DNA of 64,000 nt from Sipunculus nudus (Eukaryota > Annelida > Sipuncula > Golfingiida > Sipunculidae), in NCBI GenBank assembly GCA_026874595.1, contig CM049320.1, positions 28,756,714 to 28,820,713 of the forward strand. The letters are read 5' to 3'. The notes below the pieces were generated by a model. That model had not been told where the DNA came from. It saw only the letters and a program-made list of their open reading frames with translations, and did not search any database. A program made the translations under genes and the position numbers. This document shows, in pieces, positions 22,416 through 63,454 of the stretch; the first letter of the stretch is position 1; each line of letters starts with the position of its first letter.

Positions 22416-22479
22416 ATGACCTCTCGAAATCTCATCATTGTCACTGTTGTAGCAGTCTGGCTTTCATATTTTCATTCGG
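22416..22479 (+). CDS. Leader exon: signal peptide of C-type lectin gene (unit A)
   Basis: ATG to donor, 64 bp, ending in phase 1 before GTAAGTAT. The coded start is MTSRN followed by the hydrophobic core LIIVTVVAVWLSYF and small residues HS, a good eukaryotic signal peptide. The ATG was chosen because paralogous leaders at 53812 and 3131 begin at the same place and have the same length, although an in-frame ATG lies upstream at 22383. Its phase fits the 24-bp exon at 24467 and the CTLD exon at 30696. Spliced together, the model gives a secreted single-domain lectin of roughly 155 residues. The long intron to 30.7 kb contains LINE remnants. Confidence 0.65.
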
Positions 22480-22928
22480 GTAAGTATATTTACAGACACG
22501 TTCACGTCAAAACAAAATGTTGCAAATACAGCTATTTGTATTCTTCGATTAAACCGTTGGAGCGATTTCGACAAATATATTCTTGCTCTCAAATGAATGT
22601 TTTTTAGGCATGTTCTGTTTGTAAATCAAAGTATATGTTTGGGTGTAATGGATATTAGTTCTCTCTATTAATGATGCCATGTGGCATTCAAATCTGTAGA
22701 TGATGCACATTCATGTCTATACATTTTAAATACCATCTTTTCCATGAATTTCAAATAGATATTTGCAAAAAAATGTTACCTCTTTTGTGAAAAACAAAAT
22801 ATTTCCTATACTAATGTTATCTGCTCAAGGAAATTAGAGTTACCATAATCACATTAGCGATCTTTTTCAGCCAGACTTCTGCATAATTATTTAAATATTT
22901 GGCAAATTATAAAATTCTCGGAAATCAC
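22480..22928. other. Start of intron, conserved with 50844-51290
   Basis: Intron sequence following the leader donor is recognisably the same at the second leader copy ('gtatatgtttgggtgtaatg' at about 22631 and 50995). No exon seen. Confidence 0.5.
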
Positions 22929-23110
22929 TAGCCTGGATTAGCAGGTTTCATTTGGTGAGGGCCTGAAAACGCCTCTGACATAAATAAATGAGCACCTATT
23001 GAATATGGCTAACAAATGTGACTGTATTGAGTACATTTTCGCTTGGGGACTGGACAAATTGCAAACAAAACACCAGCCATCTATGATCCAGGAAAGGATT
23101 TAGTAGAATG
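22929..23110 (+). pseudogene. Decayed copy of unknown coding fragment (partner 51291-51497)
   Basis: Aligned with 51291-51497 it shares 'ccagccatctatgatcc' and 'gcacctawtgaat', but it carries several stops and frameshifts. The product is not recognised. It sits in the intron after the leader exon in both copies, so it duplicated with that module. Confidence 0.4.
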
Positions 23111-23296
23111 TTTGAATAATAATTTTTACACAGGTAAATCAACCCCCAGTCACAAACATAATAACGTTAACCTAGGAATGACGAAACCCTAACGATTTTG
23201 GAAATCATGGCGTCCCAAAAGCCCTACAAATGACTTTCATTAACATCATTAGATGTCCCATAAGACTTTAAAATACTAAGTAAAGTACTGGTTACT

Positions 23297-23620
23297 AGGT
23301 TGAAGAAAGTCCTTCCTGTTATAATATCTAAAGAACAAAGGGCTTTCATACAGGAACGTTTCTTTGGTTAATTTATACGATTAATAAATGGTATGTCTTA
23401 TTGTAGACAAAAAAATACCAGGAAAATATATGGCGCTGAATTTGCTTCTGCTTTTGACCGTATCGATCATACTTGTATGTTCAGTGTTCTAAAACAATGC
23501 TGATTTGGTCAGCAGTTTATCACATGGATTTAAGCAATGTACAATAAACTAGAAAATCCAGTGATTGAAAATGAAGTAACTACAAAATATTTTCCATTAG
23601 AAAGAGGTACATCTCTTTAA
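23297..23620 (+). pseudogene. LINE reverse transcriptase fragment (L1-like), decayed
   Basis: A single frame from 23297 gives reverse-transcriptase text with in-frame stops: KKVLPVIISKEQ, then RLINGM, then FASAFDRIDH (RT domain A, usually F-x-K-A-F-D-x-V/I-D-H), then FITWI, then KYFPLERGT (usually followed by R-Q-G-D-P). The YxDD box is not in the fragment. At least three stops lie in frame, so it cannot code a working enzyme. It lies in the same orientation as the lectin genes, inside the putative long intron. Confidence 0.75.
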
Positions 23621-24466
23621 GTAGAATTTGTCCGATTGAAATAGGTGTGATCATTTTTCCAGTTTAAATAGACACTTAATTAAGTTTTATCATTGCATTG
23701 TTGCAAAGAATTTGATTTTTTGAATCTCTGAATGGCTACGTGGTAGTAACATAAATAACCAATAATACAATCGTTCTGTACGATAAACTGACATTGTACA
23801 TTAAAAAAGGTCGTAAGAGCATAAATACCTTATTCTAAAAATTCAAATATAGAGCCAATTCATTTCACAAAGAAAAATATCTTATAGCAAAGAAAAACAA
23901 AAGTTAGAATTGCATTTAAGAGAATGGGGCCTACTGATGCCACTCATAATGTGAAATTACCTCCTGATGTAAATATTATAAACAAAAGGGCAAGTTTTAA
24001 GTATTCTCCTGTCATATCAATATGTTATAATTTGAAGTAGACGTTCCTATCGATATTATTATTGTTTTATCTACACACTTGTAGAGAAATCCAAACAAAA
24101 CAGAGACAGACAATTATAATAAAGTTCATCTTTATCGGTTGATAGGAAAAGAGAAAGACTAACAAAACGACACATATGACAGACAGGACAATAATTGATT
24201 GGTTTAATTGACTTAAAAAAGAACACTTATTGTTTCGCCGGGTTCACAGATATATATCCTATCCATGACCTCAAAGCTGTATGATCCTCAATCACTGGCA
24301 TTAATGTTATTGAAAGCCGACGGTTTACGTCAGTTTATTAGTTCAGTGGACTAGGCATATAATCTTTAACACTTCTTAACATGTTACAAACTATATTAAA
24401 AGACACCTTGCGGTTGTCCTCAAAATAAATATGATTACATATTGTGTAACTTGACATTTGTTTCAG
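23621..24466. other. Non-coding, probably LINE-derived remainder
   Basis: No frame is convincing. Sequence downstream of the RT fragment may be the rest of the same dead LINE, but no motif proves it. Confidence 0.3.
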
Positions 24467-24490
24467 CGAAAAATATGGACGACTATGAAG
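24467..24490 (+). CDS. Candidate 24-bp microexon
   Basis: A good acceptor ('catttgtttcag') and a donor-like GTATTG border 24 bases that read phase 1 to phase 1 and code K-N-M-D-D-Y-E with split flanking codons. Both phases fit the leader before it and the CTLD exon after it, adding a short acidic linker between signal peptide and lectin domain. No equivalent was found between 53875 and 55898, and the leader can join the CTLD exon directly in the same phase, so it could be optional or spurious. Confidence 0.35.
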
Positions 24491-27400
24491 GTATTGAAAC
24501 AAATTTTACATGTTTCTCTTTTAGATTCTCTTTGTCTTAAAGTTCAATGTAAACGTTATTTATGGTCTAATACAAGGCTTTGATATTCCCCATTAATAAA
24601 GTATGATAACCTATATGTTTCCTATGCTGCCAATGAAATAAAGGACTTTCTTTTAGAAGACCATATGGTGACATTTTGATAGCTCATGAAATAAAATTAT
24701 ACACAATTTTGAAATTTTGTTAGAATAAATGGTGAGTTAACCACTGTAAATGCTAGTGCAGGTATCTTTATCAGTACAACTACCTGTGCGGAGAACATTC
24801 TTCCTTCATCCTGCCTGACGTAATAGTGACAATTTAAACCATTGATCCGTGAATTGTTGTCTTTAAATACCACCGCTTCAAAGCAACCATTGAATACACA
24901 CACGACAAGTACTGTACATAATTGATCCTCTTTCTTTTTATGCTGTCATTTTATTAGTAAAATGAATTTATTGTGTATATGGTAAACAACACTTTACAAT
25001 AGCAAAGCTGTAGCAGACGCGGAATGTGCCTGAGGATAACCTACAAAAAGATGTAGCCTCGTTTATAATATTACGCACGCGGCAATCTGGATGCAAGTTC
25101 TTTTGAAAAAAAGTTTATTATACGAGGAAATATACTAAAACCCCAGCACACCATTTCCCCAACTTAATTTTTACTGGCTTGTCATTAAGTGCCTAATTTT
25201 ATTGGTCATTGATCTGCTCATTTTTGTCAAGAAGATGATCCCGTCGATGGGTTATTCGACATATGCCAGATCATAGGTGAAAGCAGTATAAAGTATATAA
25301 TTGTGTTGTTGCACGGTAATGCTTAATATTTTTCCAAGCTGATTCTCTTGCCTGACTTTCAAGGACATATTTACAATAAACTCCTTCGTATTTTCCAAAA
25401 CTATTATTATAATTTTAACAGAAAAAGGTATTAAATCAATTTAAAGATTGGAATGTTCAAAAAGTTCACGGAGAACAGGACAATTAAACTTCTGTATCAA
25501 CAGAAAATGTCAACATAATGAATTTAAAGCAAACGCATAAATAACATCGAGTTCATATAAATGTACAATGTTTTAACTATTGAATGTGTAAACACGGGGT
25601 CATGTCGCAACTTTTCATTAGCGTTGGGGAGTCCGTTCGATATCTTTGTGCACACAGTGAAGCAGGTCCCGGCTGATCGGTTAATTATGCACACCTGTTA
25701 CCTTTCGGTGGCTCTGCAATAAAACAACAATTATACGTCTTATAAAAACAAAATAAATATTTAATCTTGCATATTGTTATGTAGCCCTCCTTAGCCGAGG
25801 TTCTAAGTCTCAAGTGTCGCGGAAACTGGTTAATTAGATTTTGTAAAGACATAGATGGGTTATAACACATCATCCTTTGTATATGGTACAGGATAGAGCT
25901 TGTAATATAACAAATTAAACTGATTCAGACCCCTACATGCTATTAATTAGATAAAACCGTCGCTGATTTCATATTTTATAGGGATCTATGTGACGCGACT
26001 GATTATCTGCTGTGATGATTTGCTCATTCATCAAAGCTGAAAATAAATGAAAATCTTGGTCACGTACTTTGTATGTAAGCTTTGATAACCCTCATCCTAG
26101 TTGATTTTTAATTTCAGTAAAACGCAACGCGCAGTTCTTGTGTATGATTATCAATATGTTGAAAGCAAACTCTATTTTATTACAATTCTCATCCTTCAGT
26201 CCTGATTAGGTAACAGAACTCTTACACGTGTCCCGATTTCGGTTTCTTTGAGAACTGATGTCACATGTCAAAGATGACTGAAAACAAGCCTTTGTGTTAG
26301 CTTGTTGGAGCCAAGACACGAATAGGAAAGCTTTGTATGAAAACTGGCTTAATAGACAAGATGAACTATAAATAAGCTTAATCTCTAAATTTACTGCATA
26401 TTTATGAGTAAAAATAAAATAAGCAGAAAAAATTGATACATTGATAAACACGTATTGCCTGATGGACCTTTGTTACAGCGGAAGTGACGTTAACCAAATG
26501 GAACTGGTATATTTCCATTATCCTTAGAAATATTAGTGGACATGGAAATGTATTCCCCTGAGGCCTTATAAATAAGACTAAAGAAATAAGTGACATACAG
26601 AGGTTTGGCCTTTAACCATTGTTATCTCATAACTTTTATTTCATAATACGATGCATCATCAAAGTAAAAAAATAGCCATTTAAGTTCGACAATATAATCT
26701 GCAGGGGATTGAGTATTTGTATATCTTGCGTGTTCAATTATTCGTAACGTTTTGCGCTTTTCACATCACAGAGTTTTATGTATGTTTTTCATATATATTC
26801 TAAATTAAACTATTTACACTAGAGTACCACAGGAGTTCAATGAAAGTCTCCCGTGTAAAAGATGGGATTGGAATTACTACAGTTTAGCTTTAACTGCTGT
26901 TACCATCATATTTTAAAATGGAAATCTGACCATTTGTTTCTGAAAGTAAATTTGAGAGTGTTATCACTCCTTTTATCTATGCCTTATAAGCTATTACCTT
27001 GTCATCGACCTTAAATTTGGAGTCGTACTATATTATCTGGTGATATGAATCTGAATCGTTATCTTTAAAATTAAATTCACACCAATTTTCAGAAACGTCT
27101 TTTACAAATATCGGCATATGCAATGAAAGACAAGAAACATCATTATGCAAATAAATTCTATAAATTAGACCAATATCCGGTAAAATTTGTCTCTAGTCAA
27201 CCTTTTCAGGTGCATTTGATAGCCACTTGACCCATGATATTTTCAATGGTGAGTAATGTGACAAGATGTGTGGCGCATTTAGGTTACCATTATCACTGCT
27301 ATTTATCATTATTTTATTTTATTTTATCGACTCTGCTACTTCATAAAAAAACTCTGCTACTTCATAAAAAAATTGTATCACCCGCATATTGCGTGAGTAT

Positions 27401-27620
27401 ATGTTCATCCCCATTTACTAATATGTCGGATGTATTCGATGCCTAATGTTATTGGAAAGTAATTCTGTGGGAGGGGATATGTTGGGAGGGGACATCTTTG
27501 TCGTATTGCTTTTTTTCTTAATGAAAAAAAATGCACTAGACCATCTGTTACTTATAACATAAAGTTACCTTACTGAAACCAAGAGATACCCAATTCCTCA
27601 TTACTGACTCAAAGTGAAAA
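24491..27620. other. Non-coding intron-like stretch
   Basis: No supported exon. The short open frames at 24697, 25685, 26206, 26402 and 27234 have no recognised motif. A small tandem duplication of 'ctctgctacttcataaaaaa' lies near 27332-27370. Confidence 0.4.
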
Positions 27621-27624
27621 GTTT

Positions 27625-28640
27625 TTAATGTCTATTGAATATATGAAAACTGCAAACAGTAAAAACCTTTTCCATAGTCGACAAATAACATATGATATTT
27701 ACTGGACCTTGTCGTTGTTACTAATTGGAGGCTAAGCACTCTATTGATATTTTCAACAAGGTGTCTGTAAGGGATAAACCCAGTCTGATCTGTATGAATA
27801 ATGTAATGAAGTACCATTTTTATCCTTACAGATAAAGTGTTAGTTAAAAGTTTGTAATCAAACTATGAAAAAGATCGGTCTCAAATTTTTAAGTAAATTT
27901 TTATTTTTGTCTTTCATATGAATTAGCGAAAAAATACCCTGACGCTGTGTTATACCGAGGCATTATAATAAGCTGCATTATATGCCTCAATTAAAATTTT
28001 ATTTTAAAATTGTTCCAAAAGTTGACATATAAAATTCCATGGGGAGTCCATCCGTTTCCGGTGTTTTGTTTCTATGATTTGTTTCAACACATGTTCGGTT
28101 TTATTATGGTTCATCTAAAACAATCGCATCCGTGTTTGAAAGGTGTGTTATCACCCAAACAATCACCACATTCCTTCGGGGGACTCATATTTTCAATTGA
28201 AGTCTCTCGTGCTTCTAAACTGTCAATTTAATCTGTTATAATACGCTCATTAACATTTAATCTACTGAATATTTTTCTGTTAAAATATCTTTACTCCATA
28301 TTTAAAGTACTTTGTTGGTTAATCTTCTTGTTTAATATATCTAGATTTAGCCCGGAACATTGCCCTTTGTGCTTCCTGTTAAATTTCTTTGTCGATTTTA
28401 TGTTTTATTTGAAGAAACTTTTACACAGGACTGATTCAGAGGAGCTTATGCAATTTGTTTCGTTATATATCGCAGGTCTTTTTTTCAATAAATTAGGTTT
28501 TTTGTTAACTTGTTCTGTTAAATCGAATATGACATGGAAGAACCCTTTATGTTACATTTTACACTTTCCCATATTAAACAAGGTTCCGTACCTCTGTTAT
28601 CCCTTACTGTATTTTCTATGCATTGTTGTATTTTAGACAC
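27625..28640 (-). pseudogene. L1-like LINE ORF2 remnant, minus strand
   Basis: Read on the minus strand from about 28640 downwards, successive pieces match the order of an L1-type ORF2: RAMFRAKSRYIKQ followed by PTKYF (the segment before RT), SPPKEC, then NLLKNLRPI, then DQTGFIPYRHLVENI, then LFVDYGKGFY (degenerate RT domain A). Frames change several times and stops are frequent, so it is dead. Open frames on the + strand at 28010-28231 and 28328-28636 are antisense shadows. It lies opposite to the lectin gene within its putative intron. Confidence 0.7.
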
Positions 28641-30690: not shown

Positions 30691-30695
30691 TGCAG

Positions 30696-30905
30696 CAACG
30701 CCTTCCTGTCCAGGGAACTGGAAAGAATATAATGGCATTTGTTATAACCTAAGTGATTATGTCGCTTATTCAGAGGCTCAGACTGCATGTAATCGTCTTT
30801 CAAGTGATTTAATCATGATAAGTACAGTGGCAGAAAGGAAGTGGATGAAAGATGTACTGCTAGCACAGGTGTCCGCATGGATAGGCGGAGCTACCGACAG
30901 ATTTT
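30696..30905 (+). CDS. C-type lectin-like domain, exon 1 (copy C1, unit A)
   Basis: Acceptor 'tcttgcag' and donor GTAAGTT enclose exactly 210 bp, phase 1 at both ends. It codes the N-terminal half of a CTLD: a Cys-x10-Cys hairpin (CPGNWKEYNGIC), helix 1 with SEAQTACNRL, strand DLIMISTVAE, helix 2 with W-M-K, and the hallmark strand AWIGGATD. Asn-Leu-Ser is a possible N-glycosylation site. Domain form, Cys pattern and WIGG fix the family with high confidence. The domain is continued by 31233-31414. It is more like C3 (55898) than its neighbour C2 (36755), showing that the A and B units duplicated after the two domain types diverged. Confidence 0.85.
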
Positions 30906-31232: not shown

Positions 31233-31414
31233 GGGATGGATTATGCACTCTTATGGATGCTGCAAAAAAATGTTTGTGGTACAGCAGCGATCGATGCAGT
31301 TATATTTATCCAGCAGTCTGCAGAAAAGGAATAGACAGTACAGGTGAAGACACTTTCTCTTGTGATCAGCTTAATATTCACGATAAATCAAACTGTTCTG
31401 ATTCCTCTTCTTAA
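31233..31414 (+). CDS. C-type lectin-like domain, exon 2 with stop (copy C1)
   Basis: The acceptor is inferred at the AG of 'ataaag' (31231-31232); the phase-1 join makes a W-D-G motif right at the border, the usual core tryptophan of a CTLD. It then codes LCTLMDAAKK, a Cys-containing turn, and the C-terminal core PAVCRKG. Open reading continues through a Cys-containing tail (F-S-C-D and S-N-C) to TAA at 31412-31414, with AATAAA signals at 31532 and 31542. A donor-like GTGAAG at 31344, at the same place as in the other three copies, could instead splice in phase 1 to the next CTLD at 36755. No long loop and no EPN, QPD or WND motif exist between exon 1 and exon 2. Confidence 0.75.
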
Positions 31415-31531
31415 AATATAGGAGCAATATGTGAAGCATTTCTTTTATTGTGTATACTTTTTGTATTATATCTTGATTTCCTTACCTGGGTCATTCTCTA
31501 ATTATATTGAAAATTAATATCGTTTGCAACA

Positions 31532-31547
31532 AATAAAATGTAATAAA
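31532..31547 (+). promoter_or_regulatory. Candidate polyadenylation signals
   Basis: Two AATAAA hexamers (31532 and 31542) lie about 120-135 bases after the C1 stop codon, supporting an end of a single-domain transcript here. Confidence 0.45.
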
Positions 31548-31618
31548 TACCCTGTTATATTGTGACAATGATTTGATTGGATAAAATTATTTAATTTATA
31601 TTTTTATTTTAATTTTAT

Positions 31619-36754: not shown

Positions 36755-36964
36755 TATCATCTCCCTGTTCTGACAACGACAAAGAATACAATGGCAGTTG
36801 TTATTACTTGAGTAATCGTGTCCCTCATTCAGAGGCACCGACCAAATGTAGTGTTAATGCAAGTGAGTTGGTCATGATAGCCACAGCGGCAGAAAGGAAG
36901 TGGATTGAAAATGATCTGCTATCACAGGAGTCCGCATGGATAGGCGGAGCTACCGACGGATTTT
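36755..36964 (+). CDS. C-type lectin-like domain, exon 1 (copy C2, unit A)
   Basis: The acceptor 'atcttgcag' and donor GTAAGTT enclose exactly 210 bp, phase 1 to phase 1. It codes CSDNDKEYNGSCYYLS (first disulphide hairpin, with Asn-Gly-Ser as possible N-glycan site), helix 1 with APTKC, strand ELVMIATAAER, W-I-E-N-D, and SAWIGGATDGF. It is the second domain type of the locus; its closest copy is C4 at 60839, from which it differs by few residues. With phase 1 on both sides it can follow C1 exon 2 in one transcript or be used after a leader exon directly. No leader lies between C1 and C2, which favours a shared transcript. Confidence 0.85.
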
Positions 36965-37337: not shown

Positions 37338-37483
37338 GGGATGGATTGTGTATTTTCATGGATGCTGAAAGAGACATATTATGGTACAACAGGTACGGTC
37401 ACAGAGTGTGCAGTGATCGTTGGCCGGCCGTCTGCAGAAAAGGAGAAGACAGTACAAGTAACGATACTTTCTCTGCTGATTAA
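37338..37483 (+). CDS. C-type lectin-like domain, exon 2 (copy C2)
   Basis: The acceptor AG is in 'cttgaag' (37336-37337), identical in C3 and C4. The join gives W-D-G, then LCIFMDAERD, LWYNRYGHRVCSDRW and PAVCRKG, the C-terminal core with its last two half-cystines. Reading through ends at TAA 37481-37483; splicing at the donor-like GTAACG (37458) would give a 120-bp, phase 1 to 1 exon. Exon 2 is 9 bp longer than in C1 and C3 (120 versus 111 bp up to the donor), a three-residue insertion shared with C4. Spliced onwards it may reach the Thr-rich exon at 38619, but the phases do not match directly. Confidence 0.7.
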
Positions 37484-38385: not shown

Positions 38386-38618
38386 GGTGCAAGATAGCAA
38401 ATTATGACATTTATTTAAGTTTTTGAGTGTAAAATGCTCCATCTGCTTATCTGCTTCCCCAAAGACAGTTTGTAAGTTTTAACTTATTGAAAACTGAAAG
38501 CTGCAAATTTTAATAAACATCTTTGGGTTATTGAACACATATAATGAAAGTAAATAAAATCGTAAAGATATTGAGTCAAGATATTTAATATCTTTACACT
38601 ATCCTCATTTTTGCCCAG

Positions 38619-39395
38619 AAAAAAAGCCACACTGAAAGTGCCCATGATAGAAATACAGAAACAACTATCAAAACTACTGACCAGGATGCTGGAGAAACAA
38701 CTCCCCCAACTCAGACTACTGACCCAGATGCAGGAGAAACAACTCTTTCCATCCAGACTAAAGGCCGAGATGCTGGAGAAAAAACACTTCTCATCCAGAA
38801 TCATGACCAAGATGCTGGAGAAACATCTCCTCCTACTCGGACTACTGGCCAAGATGCTGGAGAAACAACTCCTCCGACCCAAACTAGTGACCGAGACGCT
38901 GGAGAAAGAATCCCTCCTATGCAGGCTACTGACCGAGATGCTGTAGAAACAACACCTCCCATCCAGACTACAGACGGAGATGCTGGAGTAACAACACCTC
39001 CTAACCAGACTACTGACCAGGATGATAGAAAAACCACTCTTCCCACCAAGACTACTGACCAAGATGCTGGAGAAACAACTCTTCCCACTAGGACGACTGA
39101 CCAAGATGCTGATGAATCAGAATTTACCAAAACTACTGGCCAAAATAGTGATGAATTCACTCCAGCCACAAAACGCATTCCGGTGGCAACCACCCAAAAT
39201 ATCGAGACAACTGACAAAAAGCTTGAAGCAACTACCAAACTGTCCAAGACAACTAAACATGATGCTGAAACGATTAGGGTGCCTTATGGTCCTCAGAACA
39301 AACCCGGGTATGGCAACAATCATCTAAAAGCAATGCCGGGAAGGTTATGCTATATACTGATAACAAAGGAGGGGTACTCTCTCATTTGTGATTAA
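38619..39395 (+). CDS. Thr/Pro-rich 14-residue repeat exon (mucin-like tail), copy M1
   Basis: The acceptor 'cctcatttttgcccag' precedes a 777-bp exon, phase 0, ending in TAA (39393-39395). Only this frame is open to the end. It codes ten full and about two worn repeats of 14 residues, consensus TTDQDAGETTPPTQ, followed by a Thr-rich stretch and a conserved basic/aromatic end (VPYGPQNKPGYG, then MPGRLCYI and YSLICD). Thr density suggests heavy O-glycosylation, as in mucin stalks (inference). It lies 1.2 kb behind C2, as M2 lies behind C4, so it is probably the C-terminal part of the same gene, yet the phase does not match the C2 donor. Open frames of 206 and 148 codons on the minus strand and 111 codons in another + frame are shadows of the 42-bp repeat. 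Confidence 0.7.
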   Translation, partial: KKSHTESAHDRNTETTIKTTDQDAGETTPPTQTTDPDAGETTLSIQTKGRDAGEKTLLIQNHDQDAGETSPPTRTTGQDAGETTPPTQTSDRDAGERIPPMQATDRDAVETTPPIQTTDGDAGVTTPPNQTTDQDDRKTTLPTKTTDQDAGETTLPTRTTDQDADESEFTKTTGQNSDEFTPATKRIPVATTQNIETTDKKLEATTKLSKTTKHDAETIRVPYGPQNKPGYGNNHLKAMPGRLCYILITKEGYSLICD

Positions 39396-40113
39396 ATGTA
39401 TGTAATTTGTAGACTGAATAGATTGGCATAGACTGCCAATTTACGTTACACAATACGAAGATACGTGTGCCTTTTTGATAGTTCGGGTACTATATCAACA
39501 AAACTGAATATGGTATATATGTATTAAATGTTGAAATGCCATGCACTTATTTCGTCCAGAAAAAAACATTAAGCTCACTGTCTTTTAATGATAATTTTAC
39601 CATGGAGATGTTTTTAAATGAAAAGCGTAAGATAGCAAGATTCTCAAGTGGTGTACATATTAAACGTTATCAATGTAGTCAATTGTCCTTACTTTATCTG
39701 CACTAACCGCATCTCATCGGGTTTTTTTTCGGAGATAAACGAATCATCTTTATGATAAATACGTAACATGTCTGTATTATAATTCATTGATTAATTTTAA
39801 AATTCTACATTTTCTCTCGCACAAATTATAATTAAATAAATATATTGTGTCAGTATATTGATTTAGAATTTCGTGTTGTTCACATTGTCCATGATTGTCT
39901 CTGTTTATTTAGAGATCGTTTATTGAAGAATATCAAAGGATTCTTTGAATCAATTCAATACAGAATCGGGTTCCAATTTTTATATAGATTAAATTTGTAA
40001 TTGATTTTGGTTGCTGCCTCTATTGAATAAAGTACATAGCGGTCGCAAAGGAGTAGTTTTATTGGATAGAGACGATTCCCATAAAGTCAGTTTAGCTGCC
40101 TCACACCACGGTT
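39396..40113. repeat. 3' flank of M1, older repeat copy
   Basis: Colinear with 63455-64000 after M2, and also related, at lower identity, to 40950-41530 and 42360-42949. It is non-coding. Confidence 0.7.
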
Positions 40114-41531
40114 TAATCGTTTCTACGTAACCTCATATTTATTGTCTCTATGACCTCGCATATAAAATATTACCAGAGGTTATCAACAGTTGTCACTATT
40201 CCGATTTCCTCCGAAAAACCTCTGATATGCCCAATGATCTTATTAACAAAAATATTATGTTCATTTTTATGATTTATAAATGTAAAAGCAAATAAAAAAA
40301 AATCCACAAACGCGCATGGTAAACCTCTGTCAACTGCCTCACGTTGAGTGTTTTTCCATGACTATATGCAAAGACACACCACGCACATCTCATAAAAGAA
40401 GTAAGGGAATCAAAATGTGGTATCAGAAAAGTATTGTATATTTGATCCTTTATGCGTCCCCCATACACTATTTTTACACGTCACAAACACTATTCGTCCC
40501 CGGTTAGACTCTTTCCCTCCGACATCATAGTGTTTCGTTGGTCTACATCAAGTGCGTAATATGCGTTTGTAAGTTCTGGTTCCCAAGCGTCTCTGTGTGG
40601 GAAGAAGACTTCTATTTTCATAATTCATTACAATGTCTGTCAAATGCAGATAAAATCCGGTTTTTTTTCGTGAAAACTCTAGATTTATTTCGGATTTATT
40701 GGCTTTTTTCAGTCATGACAAGACAAGCGGAAGATTCCAAAGACCAGCCATCCCCTGTCATCAAAATATTTGGAAAAAAAGTCGATAATTTAACCATTGG
40801 ATAATGACCGAAGAACCGGAACTGTTGAATACAGGTTAACGTATAAATCAAATATCTAAAAAACCGCATGACTTAGTAGACCTTCACATATAACCCCTGG
40901 GAGACATTCAACGCACATACTTTAATGTTTACCAATATATTAAATGTTGAGATGTAATGCACTTAATATGTCCAGAAAAAGAAACAACTTTAAGCTCACT
41001 ATCTTTTAATGATATTTTAACCATCTAGGGTGCTTTTAAACGAAGTGTAAGGCAGAAATATTTTAAAGTGGTGTTCATGTTGAACGTTATCGATAATGTC
41101 AATTGTCCTTACTTCATCTGCGCTAACCGCATCATATCGGTTTTTCCTTGATAAACTAATCATCTGTTGATAAATACGTTACATGTGTACATTATAATTC
41201 ATAGATTAATTTTGAAATTTTCTCTCGCACATATTATAAATAAATAAATATATATTATGACATCATTTTATTTAAGAATTTCCAGCTTTTCGCATTGTCC
41301 ATGGTTGTCGTTGCGTATGTGGAGATAGTTTGATGAACGATATAAAAGGATTCCTTGAATCTATTCAATACAGAATCGGGTTCCAATTAATAGATTGATT
41401 AAATTTGTAAACACATCTCAATTCCGGTTGCTGCCTCTATTGATTTAAGTACATAACGGCCACAAAGGGGTAGTTTTTTTTGTATAGACGATCCCCATTA
41501 AAAATCAGTTAAGCTGGCTCACACCACGGTG
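40114..41531. repeat. 1418-bp tandem duplication, copy 1
   Basis: Base n matches base n+1418 with only a handful of differences in 1418 bases (for example 'gtctacatc' versus 'gcctacatc', 'ttattggc' versus 'ttataggc', 'aatatatt' versus 'aatgtatt'). A possible exon (acceptor 'ggcttttttcag', about 40702-40804, ending in TAA) codes a hydrophilic peptide starting MTRQAEDSKDQPS; it is unrecognised. The open frames at 40274-40507 are identical in both copies but carry no known motif. Confidence 0.9.
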
Positions 41532-42949
41532 TAATCGTTTCTACGTAACCTCATATTTATTGTCTCTATGACCTCGCATATAAAATATTACCAGAGGTTA
41601 TCAACAGTTGTCACTATTCCGATTTCCTCCGAAAAACCTCTGATATGCCCAATGATCTTATTAACAAAAATATTATGTTCATTTTTATGATTTATAAATG
41701 TAAAAGCAAATAAAAAAAAATCCACAAACGCGCATGGTAAACCTCTGTCAACTGCCTCACGTTGAGTGTTTTTCCATGACTATATGCAAAGACACACCAC
41801 GCACATCTCATAAAAGAAGTAAGGGAATCAAAATGTGGTATCAGAAAAGTATTGTATATTTGATCCTTTATGCGTCCCCCATACACTATTTTTACACGTC
41901 ACAAACACTATTCGTCCCCGGTTAGACTCTTTCCCTCCGACATCATAGTGTTTCGTTGGCCTACATCAAGTGCGTAATATGCGTTTGTAAGTTCTGGTTC
42001 CCAAGCGTCTCTGTGTGGGAAGAAGACTTCTATTTTCATAATTCATTACAATGTCTGTCAAATGCAGATAAAATCCGGTTTTTTTTCGTGAAAACTCTAG
42101 ATTTATTTCGGATTTATAGGCTTTTTTCAGTCATGACAAGACAAGCGGAAGATTCCAAAGACCAGCCATCCCCTGTCATCAAAATATTTGGAAAAAAAGT
42201 CGATAATTTAACCATTGGATAATGACCGAAGAACCGGAACTGTTGAATACAGGTTAACGTATAAATCAAATATCTAAAAAACCGCATGACTTAGTAGACC
42301 TTCACATATAACCCCTGGGAGACATTCAACGCACATACTTTAATGTTTACCAATGTATTAAATGTTGAGATGTAATGCACTTAATATGTCCAGAAAAAGA
42401 AACAACTTTAAGCTCACTATCTTTTAATGATATTTTAACCATCTAGGGTGCTTTTAAACGAAGTGTAAGGCAGAAATATTTTAAAGTGGTGTTCATGTTG
42501 AACGTTATCGATAATGTCAATTGTCCTTACTTCATCTGCGCTAACCGCATCATATCGGTTTTTCCTTGATAAACTAATCATCTGTTGATAAATACGTTAC
42601 ATGTGTACATTATAATTCATAGATTAATTTTGAAATTTTCTCTCGCACATATTATAAATAAATAAATATATATTATGACATCATTTTATTTAAGAATTTC
42701 CAGCTTTTCGCATTGTCCATGGTTGTCGTTGCGTATGTGGAGATAGTTTGATGAACGATATAAAAGGATTCCTTGAATCTATTCAATACAGAATCGGGTT
42801 CCAATTAATAGATTGATTAAATTTGTAAACACATCTCAATTCCGGTTGCTGCCTCTATTGATTTAAGTACATAACGGCCGCAAAGGGGTAGTTTTTTTTT
42901 GTATAGACGATCCCCATTAAAAATCAGTTAAGCTGGCTCACACCACGGT
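41532..42949. repeat. 1418-bp tandem duplication, copy 2
   Basis: Near-identical direct copy of 40114-41531. What follows (42950-43260) is an older, clearly diverged copy of the first part of the unit, so the recent event copied a stretch spanning two older repeats, as in unequal crossing-over. Confidence 0.9.
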
Positions 42950-43260
42950 GTAATCGTTTCTACGTAACCTCAATATTTATTGTCGCTATGAATTCGCATG
43001 ACCAGAGGTTATCATAATGCTGACACTAGGTGTCGTCTTTAACGTCACTTTCTGATTTCCGCCGAAAAACCTTTGATATGTCCAATGATCTGATTAAAAA
43101 ATATTATGTTAATATTTATTATTTCTGAATATTTTAAAGCATAAAAAAAAATTTGTTCCGCAAACGCAAATGAAAAACGTCTGTCAACTGCATCAAGTTG
43201 AGTGTTTTTATCATGACCATTAGCAAAGACGCATAAAGCATATCTCAGACAAGAAGTAAA
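42950..43260. repeat. Older diverged copy of the 1418-bp unit's first part
   Basis: It aligns with 40114-40440 with many substitutions and small indels ('aacctcaatatttattgtcgctatg' against 'aacctcatatttattgtctctatg'). Confidence 0.75.
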
Positions 43261-43714
43261 GGAAACAAACTATGGTATATCTGTGGCTGGATAGTATATT
43301 CTGGAAGTTGCTTCTTCCTAGGCCAAGAAGCGTCTGTAGATGCGTTGCAAATATGATATCGTTATGATAGTCAACTTGTACTGGTTACTACAGGGGTAGA
43401 GGACACCTCATTAATCAGCGTTTTAGGTGAAGGATGTGAAATTGATCGATGGGTTGCGCTGCCATTGGATTTGGTAGGGTTAATTTTCCCATAATTCACC
43501 ATGTGTCCCATGTATGATATAACGGCAAAGTATGTACTCTCGATTGTGAATCTGAATTAAATTGACCAAGGTGACTATTACCTATTGTGAATGTGAGTTG
43601 AATTTCAAAACCATATGATAATGATTGGCTAGATCCACGTGTTTTTTTTATGGGTTTATGAAAAAAACGAACTTGGTTGATTAAGTTATATTATGTCTTA
43701 TACCAGTAGTCTTG
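43261..43714. other. Non-coding stretch
   Basis: No exon or recognised repeat. Confidence 0.35.
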
Positions 43715-50793: not shown

Positions 50794-50843
50794 ATGACAT
50801 CTTGCCACTGCAGTAGCAGTCCTGCTATTGTATTACCATGCGG
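50794..50843 (+). pseudogene. Leader exon with 14-bp deletion (damaged)
   Basis: ATG and donor (GTAAGTAT at 50844) are preserved, but the exon is 50 bp instead of 64. The deletion shifts the frame and replaces the hydrophobic core by a Cys/Ser-rich peptide (MTSCHCSSSPAI...), so signal-peptide function is lost. Downstream intron bases ('agacacgttca') match those after the 22416 leader. Confidence 0.65.
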
Positions 50844-51639: not shown

Positions 51640-52015
51640 ATTAGTGTGTCATGTGATTCCAGTAGCCCCATAACTTTAATCGTGGACTTATGATGGCATA
51701 ACAAAAGAGGAGAAAAACAATAAAAAATTAACTGGCTGATATTCACTACAAGATCCACTAGAGGAGCCCTCCATGTGTTGAACTTCGAAAGACATGCAAT
51801 ACGGGTGTCTACGATGTGGCATTAAAAGATATGCCATACGGGTGTCCTCGGTATGTCATCAAAAGACATGCGAGACGACAGTCCAGGATATGCCATCAAA
51901 AGATATGCAATACGGGTGTCTACGATATGGCATCAAAAGACATGCAATACGGGTGTCTATGATAACGCATCAAAATAAATACAATACGTGTGTCTACGAT
52001 ATGGCATTATCATGT
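51640..52015 (+). repeat. 37-bp minisatellite with flank, second locus
   Basis: About six units of the 37-bp repeat found at 20010-20408, with the same 'aaaattaactggct' flank before it. Fewer units and other substitutions show independent copy-number change since duplication. Confidence 0.85.
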
Positions 52016-53811: not shown

Positions 53812-53875
53812 ATGATCACTACAAATCTCATCATTACCACCACAGTAGCACTCTTGCTTTCGTATTACCTTGCGA
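53812..53875 (+). CDS. Leader exon: signal peptide of C-type lectin gene (unit B)
   Basis: ATG to GTAAGTAC donor, exactly 64 bp, phase 1. It codes MITTN plus a hydrophobic core LIITTTVALLLSYYLA, a strong signal peptide. The phase joins CTLD exon 1 at 55898 directly, making a Thr at the seam. The intron of about 2 kb is short compared with unit A. The resulting model (53812-53875, 55898-56107, 56404-56585) is the most compact complete gene of the window. Confidence 0.7.
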
Positions 53876-55890: not shown

Positions 55891-55897
55891 TTTGCAG

Positions 55898-56107
55898 CAG
55901 CGCCTTCCTGTCCTGAGGATTGGAAAGAATATAATGACAGTTGTTATAACTTGAGTGATTCTGTCGCTAGGCCAGAGGCAGAGACTGCATGTAATCGTCT
56001 TTCAAGTGATTTGGTCATGATAAGTACAGTGGCAGAAAGGCAGTGGATGAAAAATGTACTGCTAGCACAGGTGTCTGCATGGATAGGCGGAGCTACCGAC
56101 GGTTTTT
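55898..56107 (+). CDS. C-type lectin-like domain, exon 1 (copy C3, unit B)
   Basis: Acceptor 'attttgcag', donor GTAAGTT, 210 bp, phase 1 to 1. It codes CPEDWKEYNDSC, helix 1 ETACNRL, strand DLVMISTVAER, W-M-K-N-V, and SAWIGGATDGF. Asn-Asp-Ser and Asn-Leu-Ser are possible glycan sites. It is the unit B partner of C1 (30696), 25.2 kb downstream, with only scattered replacements, mostly outside the Cys and WIGG framework. Confidence 0.85.
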
Positions 56108-56403
56108 GTAAGTTAATGAATCTTTAAAATTGTATGTATTGCTATGTCATTCAATTATTCGAATGAATATATGTTATAGGTAATCCTTCGAGAAGCGTCA
56201 ACAATGACTCGTACCCCATCCCTCTTTTCCGGTATTGACAAGTGATGCACTTAGGTCACAGGCGACATTTAACATTCGCTTTCATATAAAAATTTGGAAA
56301 ACGTATAAATATAACATCTGATGTGTTCGTATTTTTTTCTGCTTGGTTATTTAAAAATACATTCTTTTTAAATTTCATTTGATTAATCCTTTAAACCTTG
56401 AAG

Positions 56404-56585
56404 GGGATGGATTATGCACTCTCATGAATGCTGCAAAAAGAAAATTGTCGTACAGCATGGATGGATGCAGTATTTCTTATCCAGCAGTCTGCAGAAAAAG
56501 ACTAGACAGTACAGGTAAAGTCACTTTCTCTTGTGATCACCTTAAAATACGCGATATATCAAACTGTACTGATTGCTTATGTTAA
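56404..56585 (+). CDS. C-type lectin-like domain, exon 2 with stop (copy C3)
   Basis: Acceptor in 'ccttgaag', then W-D-G at the seam, LCTLMNAAKRK, a Cys turn, YPAVCRKR, and a Cys-containing tail (F-S-C-D, S-N-C, D-C-L-C) up to TAA at 56583-56585. Compared with C1 the helix Cys is replaced (AAKRK for AAKKC). A donor-like GTAAAG at 56515 sits at the same place as in the other copies. The tail beyond that donor keeps its Cys residues between C1 and C3, which argues that the read-through form is a real C-terminus. Confidence 0.75.
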
Positions 56586-56737
56586 AATATAAGAGCAATA
56601 TGTGGAGCAATTTTTTTGTGAATACTTTTTGTTTTATATCCTGATTTTCTTACGTTTGCCATTCTTTAATTTAATTGAAAAATATTTAACAAATGAAATA
56701 TTATAAATACACTGTTATTGTGACATTGATTTTATTG

Positions 56738-56742
<5 letters not shown>

Positions 56743-56778
<36 letters not shown>
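56743..56778. repeat. (TA)n microsatellite
   Basis: About 18 TA units, at the place of the shorter tracts of unit A (31619-31706). Confidence 0.95.
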
Positions 56779-56780
<2 letters not shown>

Positions 56781-58244: not shown

Positions 58245-58312
<68 letters not shown>

Positions 58313-58330
58313 AAGAAAGAGAAAGAGAGA
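56779..58330. repeat. Intergenic part of unit B (partner 31707-32693 plus 34999-35775)
   Basis: Continuous here where unit A is split by the Helitron-like insertion: the empty site is near 57755. It contains poly-C 57931-57946, (TA)n 58249-58280 and a GA-rich tract 58281-58330. Confidence 0.75.
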
Positions 58331-58545
58331 ATAGCGATTCTGGTTCATTGTTTATAGAAAAGGAACATGAACACACAAGAAAGTCGCTTCAATGCCGATA
58401 GAAAACTAACTAACTGTGACCTTGCGATTGCTGGTCGCTTGCACTATCCACTGAGCTGCAGCAGGTCCCCGACCGTCTGTGTATCTGCATATTCTTATAG
58501 GGGCCAGCAAAGTGACTCACGGTAGTGACGTCACAGAACCAGTTT
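58331..58545 (-). mobile_element. tRNA-Ala-like SINE, unit B copy
   Basis: Paralogue of the 35776-35985 element. The loop reads CCAGCAA (AGC, Ala-like) and one of the two TGACGTCA octamers has decayed (near 58513). Confidence 0.65.
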
Positions 58546-58855
58546 GTCAATTTTGAAAAAGCGAAAAACATTACCCACACTGAGGGAGAGGGACCTCCGT
58601 CCACATCCGCTCCTAAAAGGAAAAGGGAATTGTACTCCTGAGAGAGTATACTAATGATATATCGTATGATTACATAATTATTTCTACAATAACCAGAATA
58701 AAGCCAAACAGACGGTTTTTGGTTATATAAACCATCAAACTATATAATAATATGATGTGAAAATATATACAATAATTTGATACATAAGAGTGAGGTATGT
58801 GAATTAAATAAAGTCTTATTTACATCTTTTTTATTGCAATAGTATTTGTTTAAAA

Positions 58856-58996
58856 TTTCAGTCAATGTGTCAAATAAACTGACTGATATTTCAGTCAAAA
58901 AAAAACCTGACAATATCAGCAATTTTAAAAATTGTAAAATAAAGGTAATTACGACAGTTTTTAAATTGTGACCGATTTTACATATTGACTGTAACA
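58856..58996. mobile_element. Small MITE, unit B copy
   Basis: Left end 'cagtcaatgtgt' and right end 'acatattgactg' form inverted ends around about 140 bp; same site as 36281-36437. Confidence 0.5.
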
Positions 58997-59007
58997 TATA
59001 TATTTAT

Positions 59008-60453
59008 GTTTCAGTCAATGTGTAAAATCAGTCAACTTGTAAATTACAAATCGCCTGTTTTACTCTGGCATTTTACTAAATGACTGAAATTTCCAGGCAT
59101 TTTACAAATTGCCTGGAAAATCAGTCCATTTATTTGAGGGAATGACTGAAATTTTTAAATTCGGTGTATGACAAGTCATTTATATCCGTTTTTTATAACT
59201 ATTACAAAAATGAATTCTAATATTGTATAATTTTCTTTTTTAAGTATATTGTATATATTGTTTTGTATTTTATTAGGATACCGGATGTAAAATATTTGAT
59301 AAAGTTATGAGAATAATCACAATGAAACAGATGCATCCAATACTTGATCAAGATATGCTTGAATGAGTTAAAATGGGTAGTTGTTCGTCATAATTTCTCT
59401 GTGTATTCCCTTTACTGAGGGTAGTACCCTGTGCATTAATTATTTAATTAGAGCCAACCAGTAATGGCTGAAAGAGATGAGTAGTTTCTTTAATAGGCCA
59501 GTCATGTACCTGCTTTTATAGAGTCAAACTTTGATGTGTGTTAGACTTGGAGAAGAGTATTATTTTGGCACATGAGTAATGATATGATGTTAAATATTTG
59601 CTATTGATTATATTGTTAAATATTGATATGAGGATAACCACAATCAAACTGAAAATTCAGTTAGTTTATTTGAATTAAAAAGACAAAGTTTCAAGTAACA
59701 TTTCATTTGTTACATATTTTATTTGAATTAAATGCAATAATATGATGTGAATTATTTTGAAAAACAATGGTGAGGATATTCAGATGTTAAACAGATGTTA
59801 ATAACTATGATGTGTGTCAGAATTAGAGCAAAGCACTAAATGAGCACATGAGAAATAGTATGATGTGAACTATTGAATAAAGAATGAGGATAACCACATT
59901 TAAACTGAAAATTCTGTCAATTTATTGGAGTTAAATGAAAAAATATTCAAGAAACATTTTTTTATATATCTAATGGTTACAATAAAGAAAATATATTTTA
60001 CATTATATTGCATAATTCCATGTTCCACTTACTAATTAAAGGTATCACACACAGTAATTCTGATAAACAACTACCCTTTTTAACTCATCAAAGCATATCT
60101 GGTTCAGGTATTTGATATTTACATCTGTTTTACTGTGATTATCCTCATAATTCTTTAAAAAAAATTCAACATCATGTTATTTCACGAGTAGCTTAAGTAG
60201 AACAAGACAAAATATCAAAGATACTATTAAGAAGGAAGTTATAAAATAAAATAATACATATATGTAATAGTTATTATCTATTTGATATCAAAAACTTATC
60301 ATACACCAATTCTCAATTTCAGTCAAAGTCGATTTGTAAAATGCCTGAAAATTTTAGTCTTTTTGTAAAATACCTGAGTGAATCAGGCTATTTGTAAACT
60401 GACTGAAAATTTCAGGCAATTTACAAATGACTGATTTTACACAATGAATGTAA
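59008..60453. mobile_element. Foldback element with ~400-450-bp inverted arms
   Basis: The left arm (59008-about 59430) and right arm (about 60035-60453) are reverse complements in order: 'gtgtaaaatcagtca' at the ends, 'ggcattttacaaat', 'ggtgtatgayaagt', 'ataactattac', 'gataatcac', 'gagttaaaawgggtagttgt'. The middle (59430-60035) has diverged direct repeats around 'aggataaccac' (59630 and 59888). No coding. It is absent from unit A, so it arrived or grew after the A/B duplication; the outer ends are those of the neighbouring small MITE. Confidence 0.65.
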
Positions 60454-60757
60454 CACACACCCACACACACACACATATATATTTTGAAGGATTGTATTGA
60501 TATTTATTATAAAATACAGACAAAATAATGATTTAATCGTGTATAGATCCTGCAAATCTTTAAATAACATTTGTAATGCTTCAATATCCTATTGGATCCT
60601 AAAACTGTTGACCAACAACCAAATAAAGGAAAGGTTTCCACAGGAAAGAGTTATTATATATTATTGTATTAATATTAGTGTTACATTAACTGTGTGATAG
60701 TTTTAGAAAGTAGTTAGACATAAAGTTCATATTCTATTACGTAGAAGGATGTTAAAT

Positions 60758-60760
<3 letters not shown>

Positions 60761-60815
<55 letters not shown>
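60761..60815. repeat. (TA)n microsatellite
   Basis: About 27 TA units only about 25 bases before the C4 acceptor; unit A has none here. Confidence 0.95.
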
Positions 60816-60819
<4 letters not shown>

Positions 60820-60838
60820 CAATAAATACTATTTGCAG

Positions 60839-61048
60839 TATCACCTCCCTGTTCTGACAACGGAACAGAATACAATGGCAGTTGTTATCACTTGAGCGAT
60901 CGTGTCACTCGTTCAGAAGCACCGAATAAGTGTAGTTTTCATTCAAGTGAGTTGGTCATGATAGCCACAGCGGCAGAAAGGCAGTGGATTGAAAATGATC
61001 TGCTATCACAGGAGTCCGTATGGATAGGCGGAGCTAACGACGGATTTT
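60839..61048 (+). CDS. C-type lectin-like domain, exon 1 (copy C4, unit B)
   Basis: Acceptor 'actatttgcag', donor GTAAGTT, 210 bp, phase 1 to 1. It codes CSDNGTEYNGSCYHLS, helix 1 APNKC, strand ELVMIATAAER, W-I-E-N-D, and SVWIGGANDGF. Asn-Gly-Ser and Asn-Gly-Thr are possible glycan sites. The close partner is C2 (36755). A (TA)n array has expanded into the branch-point region just upstream, which might influence splicing. A shifted 117-codon open frame starting at 60892 overlaps and runs into the intron; it is in the same frame as the exon and is only its extension past the donor. Confidence 0.85.
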
Positions 61049-61400
61049 GTAAGTTAATACATCTGTTAAATTGTATACATCGCAATTTCATCCAATATTA
61101 TAGAAGAATATATTATACAGGTAATCCTTTATCGTTTAATTTGCAGAACATTTGCAAAGATTTGATATTTTGGGAAAATCGAGTAGCATCAACAATGACC
61201 ATCGCTCATTTTCCCGTATTGGCAAGTGAACAACCAAGGTCATAGGTGACATAAAACGCCCTTTCCTCATGACCTTTTCATGTGAATATTTTTGAAAACG
61301 TATGATAATGATGTATCATAAGTTATTGCTGTGTCTTCTAAGAAAAATAGACAATTTAAAAAATACACTCGTTTTTAATGTCATGTAATTAATCTTGAAG

Positions 61401-61588
61401 GGGATGGATTGTGTACTTGCATGGATGCTGCAAGAGACATATTATGGTACAACATGTTCGGTCACAAAGGGTGCAATGATCGTTGGCCGGCCGTCTGCAG
61501 AAAAGGAGAAAACAGTTCAGGTAACGATACTTTCTCTTCTGATCAACCTGTATACGCAGAATATACAAATATTACTAATACTTTATGA
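61401..61588 (+). CDS. C-type lectin-like domain, exon 2 (copy C4)
   Basis: The acceptor AG lies at 61399-61400 in 'cttgaag'. The seam makes W-D-G, followed by LCTCMDAARD, LWYNMFGHKGCNDRW and PAVCRKG. Up to the donor-like GTAACG at 61521 it is 120 bp, as in C2. Read through, it ends at TGA 61586-61588, longer than the C2 tail (TAA at 37481), so the tail is not conserved between these two and splicing at the donor is more likely for this type. The ORF at 61395-61733 is another frame. Confidence 0.7.
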
Positions 61589-62887
61589 TATAATATATAG
61601 GAGCAGTGTGGGGAGCACAATGACTCATTTGTGTACCATGGCGTGTTTTTTATTACTTGTGTCATTCTTGTATAATTGGACTTCAAAATCCTCGGCATTC
61701 CGCTGCAAAAAGGGTTATACAGAAAAGAAGTAATATGTCTTGCTTAGTATATTATTTGGGAAAAAAAACTGTTGTGACATCGGCCGTTGCACAAGCTTCT
61801 GTTCACTCTGCTGTTATCCTTGTGTAGTTTTCAGCTGCATCCTTTCTTAACTGTTATCACTTGAGGCGTGTTTAATGTCAACATTCAATTAACCTTTAAG
61901 CAATGATACCTGAAATGTGTACTGCTTATCTTCTTTCACGTTGTTACCGTCTGGCTGTGAGAATCTGTGAGTTCCTTTAAGATTTCCTTTTCTAATTATT
62001 ATAGCCTTCTAAATGAACCTTGACATATTGAATTTATTCATTCAAAGGTTAGAATATTTTATTGCAAAGCAAATCTTATACGATACACATCATAAAACTA
62101 ATCCTGATTTTGTTTGTAACATTCAAATATATCATTTAAAAATGGCATATTTGCGTTTTCATTTAAATGCAAAAAAACGTAAATAAACTGCATTTAAAAA
62201 TCCACGAGAGCAGTACTACACTTTCAGTAACATTTGCATTTCGAAAGATGAAATATGTTTCGATTGGCATTTGAAATGAGATTAAAATGTCAAAAACAAA
62301 GTCTTGAAAATCAGAATTTATAAGTGGTTGTTTTTTATTCTGTCATAGGGGATTAGTAACAGAGAGTCAGAATATACAGTTTATCTCCTATGTGTACAAA
62401 TCTATAAATCTTGTTTGACTTTTGTCTAATCTGGCCACTACAGCTCGTTTGAATCACTCATGTTGTTAAGTATAGTTCCCATTTATCATTTGGAAGGGGA
62501 CCGATATCAAGATTCTCAACATTGTCGTATTTTTAGAGGTTCTGGAAAGTTGTCAATACACAGTCCATCCCCAGTTCTGGGGAAAATTTCAGTTACTTTA
62601 ATTTTGATTTAAACATGTTTTTATTTATAGATATGCTTAATACTTTTTCTCTGTTACTTTACATGAATAAGCCATGTACAAATTATGTAAATGAAAAATA
62701 CAGATATAAATTATCTGTTTCCCAAAAAAGCAGTTAATGCACCAACATATTGAATATTTAAGTAGACAGCTAAACATTTTAATAAACATCAATGGGTTGT
62801 TGAACACATATAATGAAAGGCAATAAAATCGTTAAGATATTGAGTCAAGTTATTCAATATTCTTACACGCTTCTTATTTAAGCCCAG
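61589..62887. other. Intron between C4 and Thr-rich exon M2
   Basis: 61590-62160 matches 37490-38120; 62170-62740 has no clear match in unit A, where a TA array lies instead. A conserved phrase SAF-x-CKKGYTEKK-stop near 61690-61733 is noted without splice support. Confidence 0.4.
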
Positions 62888-63454
62888 AAAACAGACCACA
62901 CCGAAAGTGCCCTTGATAGAAATGCTGAAACAACAATCAAAACTACTGACCAAGATGCTGGAGAAACAACTCTCCCCGCAACGTCTACTGACCCAGATGC
63001 TGGAGAAACAACTCTCCCTGCAACGACTATTGACCAAGATGCTGGAGAAACAACTCCTCCCACCCGGACTAATGACCAAGATGATGGAGAAACAAATCCT
63101 CCCACCCAGATAACCGATCAAGATGATGTAGAAACAACTCATTCCATCCATACTACTAACCAATATGCTGATGAATCAACCCATTCCAAAACTACTTGCA
63201 AAAATAGTAATGACTTCACTACTGCCAACGAACGCATTCCGGTGGCAACCACCCAAAATACTGAAACAAATGAAAAAAAGCACGAAGCAACTGCAAAACT
63301 GTCCAAGACAACTGAACAAGACGCGGAAACGACTAGGGTACCTTATGGTCCTCAGAACAGACCCGGTTATGGCAACAAACATCTTAAGGCAATGCCTGGA
63401 AGGTTGTGCTATATAGTGATAACAAAAAAGGGGTACTCTCTCATTTGTGATTAA
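62888..63454 (+). CDS. Thr/Pro-rich 14-residue repeat exon (mucin-like tail), copy M2
   Basis: The acceptor 'aagcccag' precedes a 567-bp phase-0 exon ending in TAA (63452-63454). It starts KTDHTESA (KKSHTESA in M1) and contains five full and two worn 14-residue repeats (TTDQDAGETTLPAT type), then the same C-terminal block as M1 (RVPYGPQN, PGYGN, MPGRLCYI, YSLICD). It is 210 bp shorter than M1, exactly five 42-bp repeats. An in-frame TAA just before the acceptor excludes a longer exon. Minus-strand and other-frame open frames here are shadows. Confidence 0.7.
   Translation, partial: KTDHTESALDRNAETTIKTTDQDAGETTLPATSTDPDAGETTLPATTIDQDAGETTPPTRTNDQDDGETNPPTQITDQDDVETTHSIHTTNQYADESTHSKTTCKNSNDFTTANERIPVATTQNTETNEKKHEATAKLSKTTEQDAETTRVPYGPQNRPGYGNKHLKAMPGRLCYIVITKKGYSLICD

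Follow-up and report, generated by a model that had tools for sequence, protein, structure and literature searches.

A tandem array of two-domain genes

We analysed a 64-kb stretch of the genome of the sipunculan worm Sipunculus nudus (assembly GCA_026874595.1, contig CM049320.1, here C15, C15:28756714-28820713), referred to below as the window. It is AT-rich, with a G+C content of 30–39% per 2-kb step, and carries two paralogous units, A and B. Each has a leader exon, two exon pairs for C-type-lectin-like domains (CTLD1 and CTLD2) and a Thr-rich terminal exon (Table 1). A preliminary description, made from the letters of the window alone, had read the region as a tandem C-type lectin cluster.

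Matches to these exons were collected across the species' own genome (1.43 Gb in 153 contigs). A search with CTLD1 exon 1 yielded 31 matches; 14 of these make up seven CTLD1/CTLD2 pairs in the 28.59–28.82 Mb interval of C15. The array comprises at least seven units (U1–U7), units A and B being units 6 and 7, and the order CTLD1, CTLD2, Thr exon is found in all seven. A search with the C-terminus of the Thr exon gave 14 matches: one 3' of each of the seven CTLD pairs (that of U4 in two pieces by frameshift), one remnant each near 28.61 Mb (again in two pieces) and 28.66 Mb on C15, and, close to divergent CTLDs at 25.12–25.20 Mb on C15, three related exons. Of the 11 matches of the leader search, ten are on C15 and the other, a weak one, is on C10. 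Nine of the ten C15 copies are intact 64-bp leaders ending in phase 1. Six units have a leader on their 5' side, and U4 is the one for which this search gave none.

Self-comparison of the window revealed that the paralogy of the units includes their introns. The preliminary description had placed the two units 24–25 kb apart. This agrees with the offsets of CTLD1 (25.2 kb), CTLD2 (24.1 kb) and the Thr exon (24.3 kb); the intact leaders are 31.4 kb apart, and the two units belong to a larger array. In a tree of exon 1 the CTLD2 copies group together (support 99), which suggests that CTLD1 and CTLD2 diverged before the units were duplicated. Two types of duplication are seen, that of a CTLD module inside a unit and tandem copying of whole units. 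Of the proposal that modules are added, skipped or swapped, duplication is thus retained; no sign of splicing-based skipping or swapping was seen.

Two further leaders were recorded on C15. One, L029 (C15:28744725), about 12 kb left of the window, is an intact 64-bp phase-1 leader not immediately followed by a CTLD unit of its own. The other (L028, C15:28608161), also intact, is followed by a broken Thr exon (L014, C15:28611385) with no CTLD exon-1 match between them, a unit remnant.

Predicted domains with six cysteines and a short loop

As the preliminary description had it, the four CTLD exon pairs of the window are intact: all introns are GT-AG, and all exons are open and in phase 1 at both ends. 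Exon 1 is exactly 210 bp in the four window copies and in 13 of the 14 array copies (207 bp in one). At least two good leaders had also been claimed and are present; in the intact copies, leader and CTLD exons 1 and 2 were computed to join in phase 1. Across the array the CTLD splice sites are conserved in 14 of 14 copies and the frames are open in 12, the frameshifted ones being CTLD1 of U4 and U5, with a stop in exon 1 of U4. Six canonical cysteines are found in all 12 intact copies, some of which have one more.

The distance between the WIGG motif and the second-exon cysteine C2 was measured in the joined products. In all 14 array copies it amounts to 9 residues. Thirteen divergent C15 copies were also taken; in the nine with an exon 2 the distance is 5–11 residues (for L019a and L021c an alternative acceptor six bases upstream is possible), and for the other four (L016a, L019c, L020a and L020b) none convincing was located over a distance of about 1.7 kb. 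In L023a, a conventional gene on C8 with GEPD and WND motifs, 35 residues lie between WIGG and C2. Its intron after the WIGL strand has the same position and phase as that of the array CTLDs, and compared with it array exon 2 lacks the first ~26 codons, which encode the long loop. No WND was seen by eye in the 12 aligned array copies. Because the spacing is 9 residues in the array and 5–11 in the paralogs, against 35 in L023a, the long loop with its sugar/Ca2+ site is absent from the predicted product. Judged from the predicted products, the window CTLDs look compact, with all six cysteines of the long form retained.

Homology with the CTLD superfamily was examined with profiles. Matches of the window CTLDs to Pfam Lectin_C (cut-off 22.6 bits) are confined to the N-terminal half, up to WIGG; spliced CTLD1 of unit A, for example, scores 19.3 bits, below the threshold. 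Two of three divergent loopless paralogs exceed the cut-off (30.7 and 29.0 bits), each in two pieces. L023a scores 66.7 bits in one piece, and cutting out its loop lowers the score to 40.2 bits in two pieces. Two of the four window CTLDs also match the herpesvirus UL45 lectin-like family, at 17.5 and 20.7 bits against a cut-off of 27, and the Link family is not among the Pfam hits at E≤1 for the CTLDs scanned. When ten chosen open reading frames (ORFs) of the window were compared with Pfam, the only matches were a reverse-transcriptase relic and one CTLD exon; among five further ORFs, the two Thr-rich ones had no match and two of the other three had weak, sub-threshold ones. A profile built from the four window CTLDs matched 140 sequences in the PDB at E≤1, the best at 1e-12, and among the 60 of these 140 that were listed the top stretches end by column 70, just past WIGG. 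Membership of the superfamily is supported by this profile match together with the Pfam scores of the two divergent paralogs. The earlier assignment to the C-type lectins is therefore kept for tandem, CTLD-like, phase-1 modules and given up for complete canonical domains, since the long loop is missing.

A genome-wide Lectin_C search gave 151 matches (150 of 2756 first-look candidates were scored). By hand count about 50 of them are exon-2-like, beginning at profile position 29–55 and reaching its end, loop included.

Leader and Thr-rich exons

The leaders are hydrophobic by eye. A mini-exon at 24467, which the preliminary description had placed after the unit A leader, has no counterpart in unit B. 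It is identical to unit 3 over 80 of 80 bp, but lies in a stretch that is 97.3% identical in any case, and these comparisons give it no support.

Both Thr-rich exons described earlier are present, with 42-bp repeats, and are open through to a common C-terminus and stop. The entry site proposed for that of unit A, 38619, is in phase 0 and would lead to a stop within a few codons. Comparison of the units places the family acceptor AG 5 nt 5' of such sites in six of seven units, unit A being the one that lost it. Phase 1 was computed for this acceptor in U1, U2, U3, U5 and U7; U4 has the same sequence there, and the three divergent Thr exons are all entered in phase 1 by eye. With the family AG lost, an in-frame join to the Thr exon along the family route is probably no longer open to unit A, where a weaker phase-1 AG is left at 38657-38658; unit B can make the join. 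The reading that the Thr exon cannot join a CTLD at all, being in phase 0, was ruled out by the acceptor 5 nt upstream and the seven-unit comparison. A small exon between CTLD2 and the Thr exon was also considered, and only weak candidates of 17–26 bp were obtained.

Thr makes up 21–24% of the residues in the five stalks counted. A conserved tail with two cysteines closes the exon, in which no membrane segment was seen by eye. An AATAAA hexamer lies about 430–440 nt past the stop in units 3, 5, 6 and 7 and elsewhere in unit 2; none was found in unit 1, the sixth unit examined.

Selection and decay

Codon site models M1a and M2a were compared with a purpose-written script on IQ-TREE trees. For CTLD2 (seven of seven sequences) the likelihood ratio test (LRT) statistic was 23.8 (p=6.7e-6), and for CTLD1 (five of seven, the frameshifted U4 and U5 copies left out) it was 16.6 (p=2.5e-4). 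The C-terminus of the Thr exon, used as a control (six of seven units, U4 left out), had an omega of 0.53 and an LRT of 0. Pairwise dN/dS is near 1. Sites with a posterior above 0.8 fall in exon 2 in five of seven cases for CTLD1 and in five of eight for CTLD2, and nine of these ten exon-2 sites lie between C2 and the last cysteine. The results support diversifying selection in CTLD1 and CTLD2 and not in the C-terminus of the Thr exon.

The same values can be read in another way, with the CTLD exons as loop-deleted remnants of a dying lectin family, mostly pseudogenes under relaxed constraint. A dN/dS near or above 1 would then be expected, and the frameshifts in CTLD1 of U4 and U5, the lost Thr acceptor of unit A, the broken leader copy and the relic exons would fit. 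The conservation of the exons argues otherwise. Besides the splice sites and frames kept across the array, the CTLD exons of the window pairs A1/B1 and A2/B2 differ by no indel at all, against 4 events over 279 aligned intron bases and 8 over 348; at the intron rate about 12 would be expected. Under simulated neutral drift the stop-free state of all four window copies had p ~0.003–0.045, the value varying with the assumed divergence. Divergent paralogs retain the loopless design as well, the C-terminus of the Thr exon is under purifying selection, and M2a is better than M1a for both CTLDs. We therefore consider a dying family unlikely.

Search for a loop exon in the CTLD introns

If a middle exon lay within the CTLD intron, unrecognised by the scans, it could encode the loop and the domains would be canonical C-type lectins. 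Introns were scanned for open AG..GT/GC stretches of 60–150 bp in phase 1 (the intron start used for L017 and L018 was off by a few bases). Such a stretch exists in four of the 14 array introns, all of CTLD2, and in six of the eight divergent introns scanned, and with a 27-residue peptide from the CTLD2 intron of unit B added, the Lectin_C match becomes full length and its score goes up from 17.1 to 22.1 bits. Ten shuffles of this peptide, however, score 17.8–23.6 bits, one of them above the real peptide, which ranks second of eleven and was rejected as a loop. The phase-1 scan found no candidate in the other ten array introns, which include all seven of CTLD1, no loop-like motif or shared frame was seen among the candidate stretches, and the spacing is equally short in nine divergent paralogs. 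From these comparisons a hidden loop exon shared by the family is unlikely, and canonical domains completed in this way are distinctly improbable.

Proposed gene product

Taken together with the order of the exons, the joins suggest that each intact unit encodes one secreted protein with a leader, two loopless CTLDs and a Thr-rich stalk, and we regard this gene model as likely. The protein would start with a signal leader of ~21 residues, continue with two compact CTLDs of ~106–109 residues each, and end in a mucin-like stalk of 14-residue repeats followed by the conserved two-cysteine tail (LCYIVITKEGYSLICD), all exon joins being in phase 1. The stalk may be O-glycosylated and the protein secreted. 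The earlier view of a fast-evolving secreted family is borne out in part: the leaders are signal-like, no membrane segment is apparent by eye, and the amino-acid change is consistent with fast evolution.

That CTLD1 and CTLD2 are instead separate single-CTLD genes, each ending in a read-through tail after exon 2, with the Thr exon part of another gene, is very improbable: read-through from exon 2 does meet a stop ~8–23 codons on in all four window copies, and poly(A)-like hexamers lie past the tail at 31532 (A1), 56958 (B1) and 62182 (B2), but the tails vary between units (that of U2 CTLD1 stops immediately), the hexamer distances are not shared and the A2 tail has no hexamer after it as far as 38200, the GT donor of exon 2 is at the same place in 14 of 14 copies, in no unit does one of the 11 leader matches fall between the two CTLDs, the CTLD2–Thr order is kept in seven of seven, and Thr exons also stand 3' of CTLDs at 25.1–25.2 Mb.

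For the two-CTLD secreted protein we tentatively propose the following function, which we hold with less confidence than the gene model. In this lineage a six-cysteine CTLD may have become loopless through the dropping of the 5' part of the phase-1 exon 2. The β3–β4 face, left exposed without the loop, would then serve as a variable binding surface under strong diversifying selection, holding its ligand independently of Ca2+ on a mucin-stalked secreted protein. The targets may be variable surfaces of non-self or of partners, and diversity would arise from tandem duplication of units, change in the number of stalk repeats and diversifying selection on the CTLDs. Likely uses of a protein of this kind are mucosal immunity, capture of particles or microbes in mucus, and gamete recognition. 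If the proposal is true, the CTLD fold can recognise through another face, with the scaffold kept without the loop, and the array offers a minimal CTLD scaffold made by nature. Judged by the exon comparison its origin would be simple: one phase-1 exon lost its 5' part.

Several points weigh against this reading as a whole, gene model included, among them the open intron stretches set out above. Every splice junction was deduced from sequence and not from transcripts, and the conventional comparison consists of a single gene, L023a. The four spliced window CTLDs score 15.1–20.9 bits, below the Lectin_C cut-off, and so do CTLD2 of U2 (14.5 bits) and one of the three divergent paralogs (16.9 bits). 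The codon-model script is home-made, had no check against a standard program and was applied to few sequences. The whole-gene omega is 1.67 for CTLD2 (seven sequences) and 0.96 for CTLD1 (five of seven), and relaxed constraint could give the same. In CTLD2 the synonymous distance (pS) is 0.09 against an intron distance of 0.22, a hint of gene conversion, which between units can exaggerate the result of the site test. Finally, part of the array is, as far as its exons allow one to judge, decaying, because in unit A the family's Thr acceptor is lost and the CTLD2 donor weak, CTLD1 of U4 and U5 is frameshifted and no leader of U4 was found.

Comparison with known systems

The array is real, and its genes look like genes for compact six-cysteine CTLDs. 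According to passages of PMC9965136 and PMC514892, they share with canonical long-form CTLDs, such as bivalve GYL (PMC9965136), six cysteines in long-form order, a WIGL-like strand and a signal peptide, and the intron after WIGL occurs as in some fish genes (PMC514892). Unlike the canonical domains they lack the EPN/QPD long loop and WND.

CTLDs with a very short β2–β3 loop are termed 'compact' in passages of PMC6468738, which place here the Link/PTR domains and bacterial intimin and invasin. The array CTLDs, as predicted from splicing, share this short loop, but they have no Pfam Link match, keep the N-terminal cysteine pair of the long form, and come as a tandem pair followed by a Thr-rich stalk.

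Vertebrate group V and XVII CTLDs without Ca2+ sites resemble the array in that a canonical Ca2+/sugar site is not expected, and those of group V bind other ligands, as stated in parts of PMC7618208 and PMC514892. These groups differ from the array in keeping, by the same account, the loop region (called short in the group XVII protein CBCP) and in being membrane receptors or large multidomain proteins, where the array has tandem pairs with a Thr-rich stalk.

Expansions of C-type lectins in bivalves are described in the abstract of PMC10140915 as large, lineage-specific, mainly expressed in digestive gland and gills, and thought to be mucosal-immune. The array shares the large expansion; the main text of that survey does not contain the words loop, exon or intron. 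A search of the open-licence literature by title and abstract start found no report of a loopless six-cysteine CTLD family.

Other features of the locus

Table 1. Exons and exon relics of the two window units (window coordinates)
Feature	Position	Strand	Remarks
CTLD exon 1 relic, 5' of unit A	13550..13639	+	ends in WIAG; family-profile score 18.3 bits
Unit A leader exon, signal-peptide-like	22416..22479	+	64 bp, intact; ends in phase 1
Unit A CTLD1 exon 1	30696..30905	+	210 bp
Unit A CTLD1 exon 2	31233..31343	+	111 bp; starts just before cysteine C2
Unit A CTLD2 exon 1	36755..36964	+	210 bp
Unit A CTLD2 exon 2	37338..37457	+	120 bp; donor ACAA/GTAACG (slash at the junction), weak-looking
Unit A Thr-rich terminal exon, 42-bp repeats	38614..39395	+	stop 39393-39395; family phase-1 AG lost, phase-0 AG 38617-38618 remains
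Broken leader copy, paralog of 22416-22479	50794..50843	+	14-nt deletion, phase 2
Unit B leader exon	53812..53875	+	64 bp, intact; phase 1
Unit B CTLD1 exon 1	55898..56107	+	210 bp
Unit B CTLD1 exon 2	56404..56514	+	111 bp
Unit B CTLD2 exon 1	60839..61048	+	210 bp
Unit B CTLD2 exon 2	61401..61520	+	120 bp
Unit B Thr-rich terminal exon	62883..63454	+	phase-1 entry TTTAAG/CC (slash at the junction); stop 63452-63454

Near the CTLD exon 1 relic, exon-2-like relics (GESEC..) were seen by eye around 14.56 and 15.87 kb of the window. The long leader intron of unit A contains an RVT_1 relic on the minus strand (27632-27862; 22.2 bits against a cut-off of 29.6), and more text resembling reverse transcriptase was seen by eye near 23.4–23.6 kb.

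Several tandem repeats were recorded in the window. A 37-bp minisatellite lies 5' of both leader regions (20006-20402 and 51788-52007) and belongs to the duplicated unit. A satellite of ~179 bp is present in 3.9 copies at 10433-11122. A macro tandem repeat of 1416–1418 bp (~2.65 units, adjacent copies 91% identical) occupies 39519-43278 and begins in the 3' region of the Thr exon of unit A.

More than 50 of the 151 genome-wide Lectin_C matches, by hand count, are similar-scoring ORFs, mostly of 362 or 382 amino acids, with the whole domain inside. They occur on most large contigs, sometimes in tandem ~1.4 kb apart (e.g. C7:29985589, 29987054 and 29988474; C13:31268861 and 31270290), and from their spread look like an amplified or mobile CTLD-carrying ORF.

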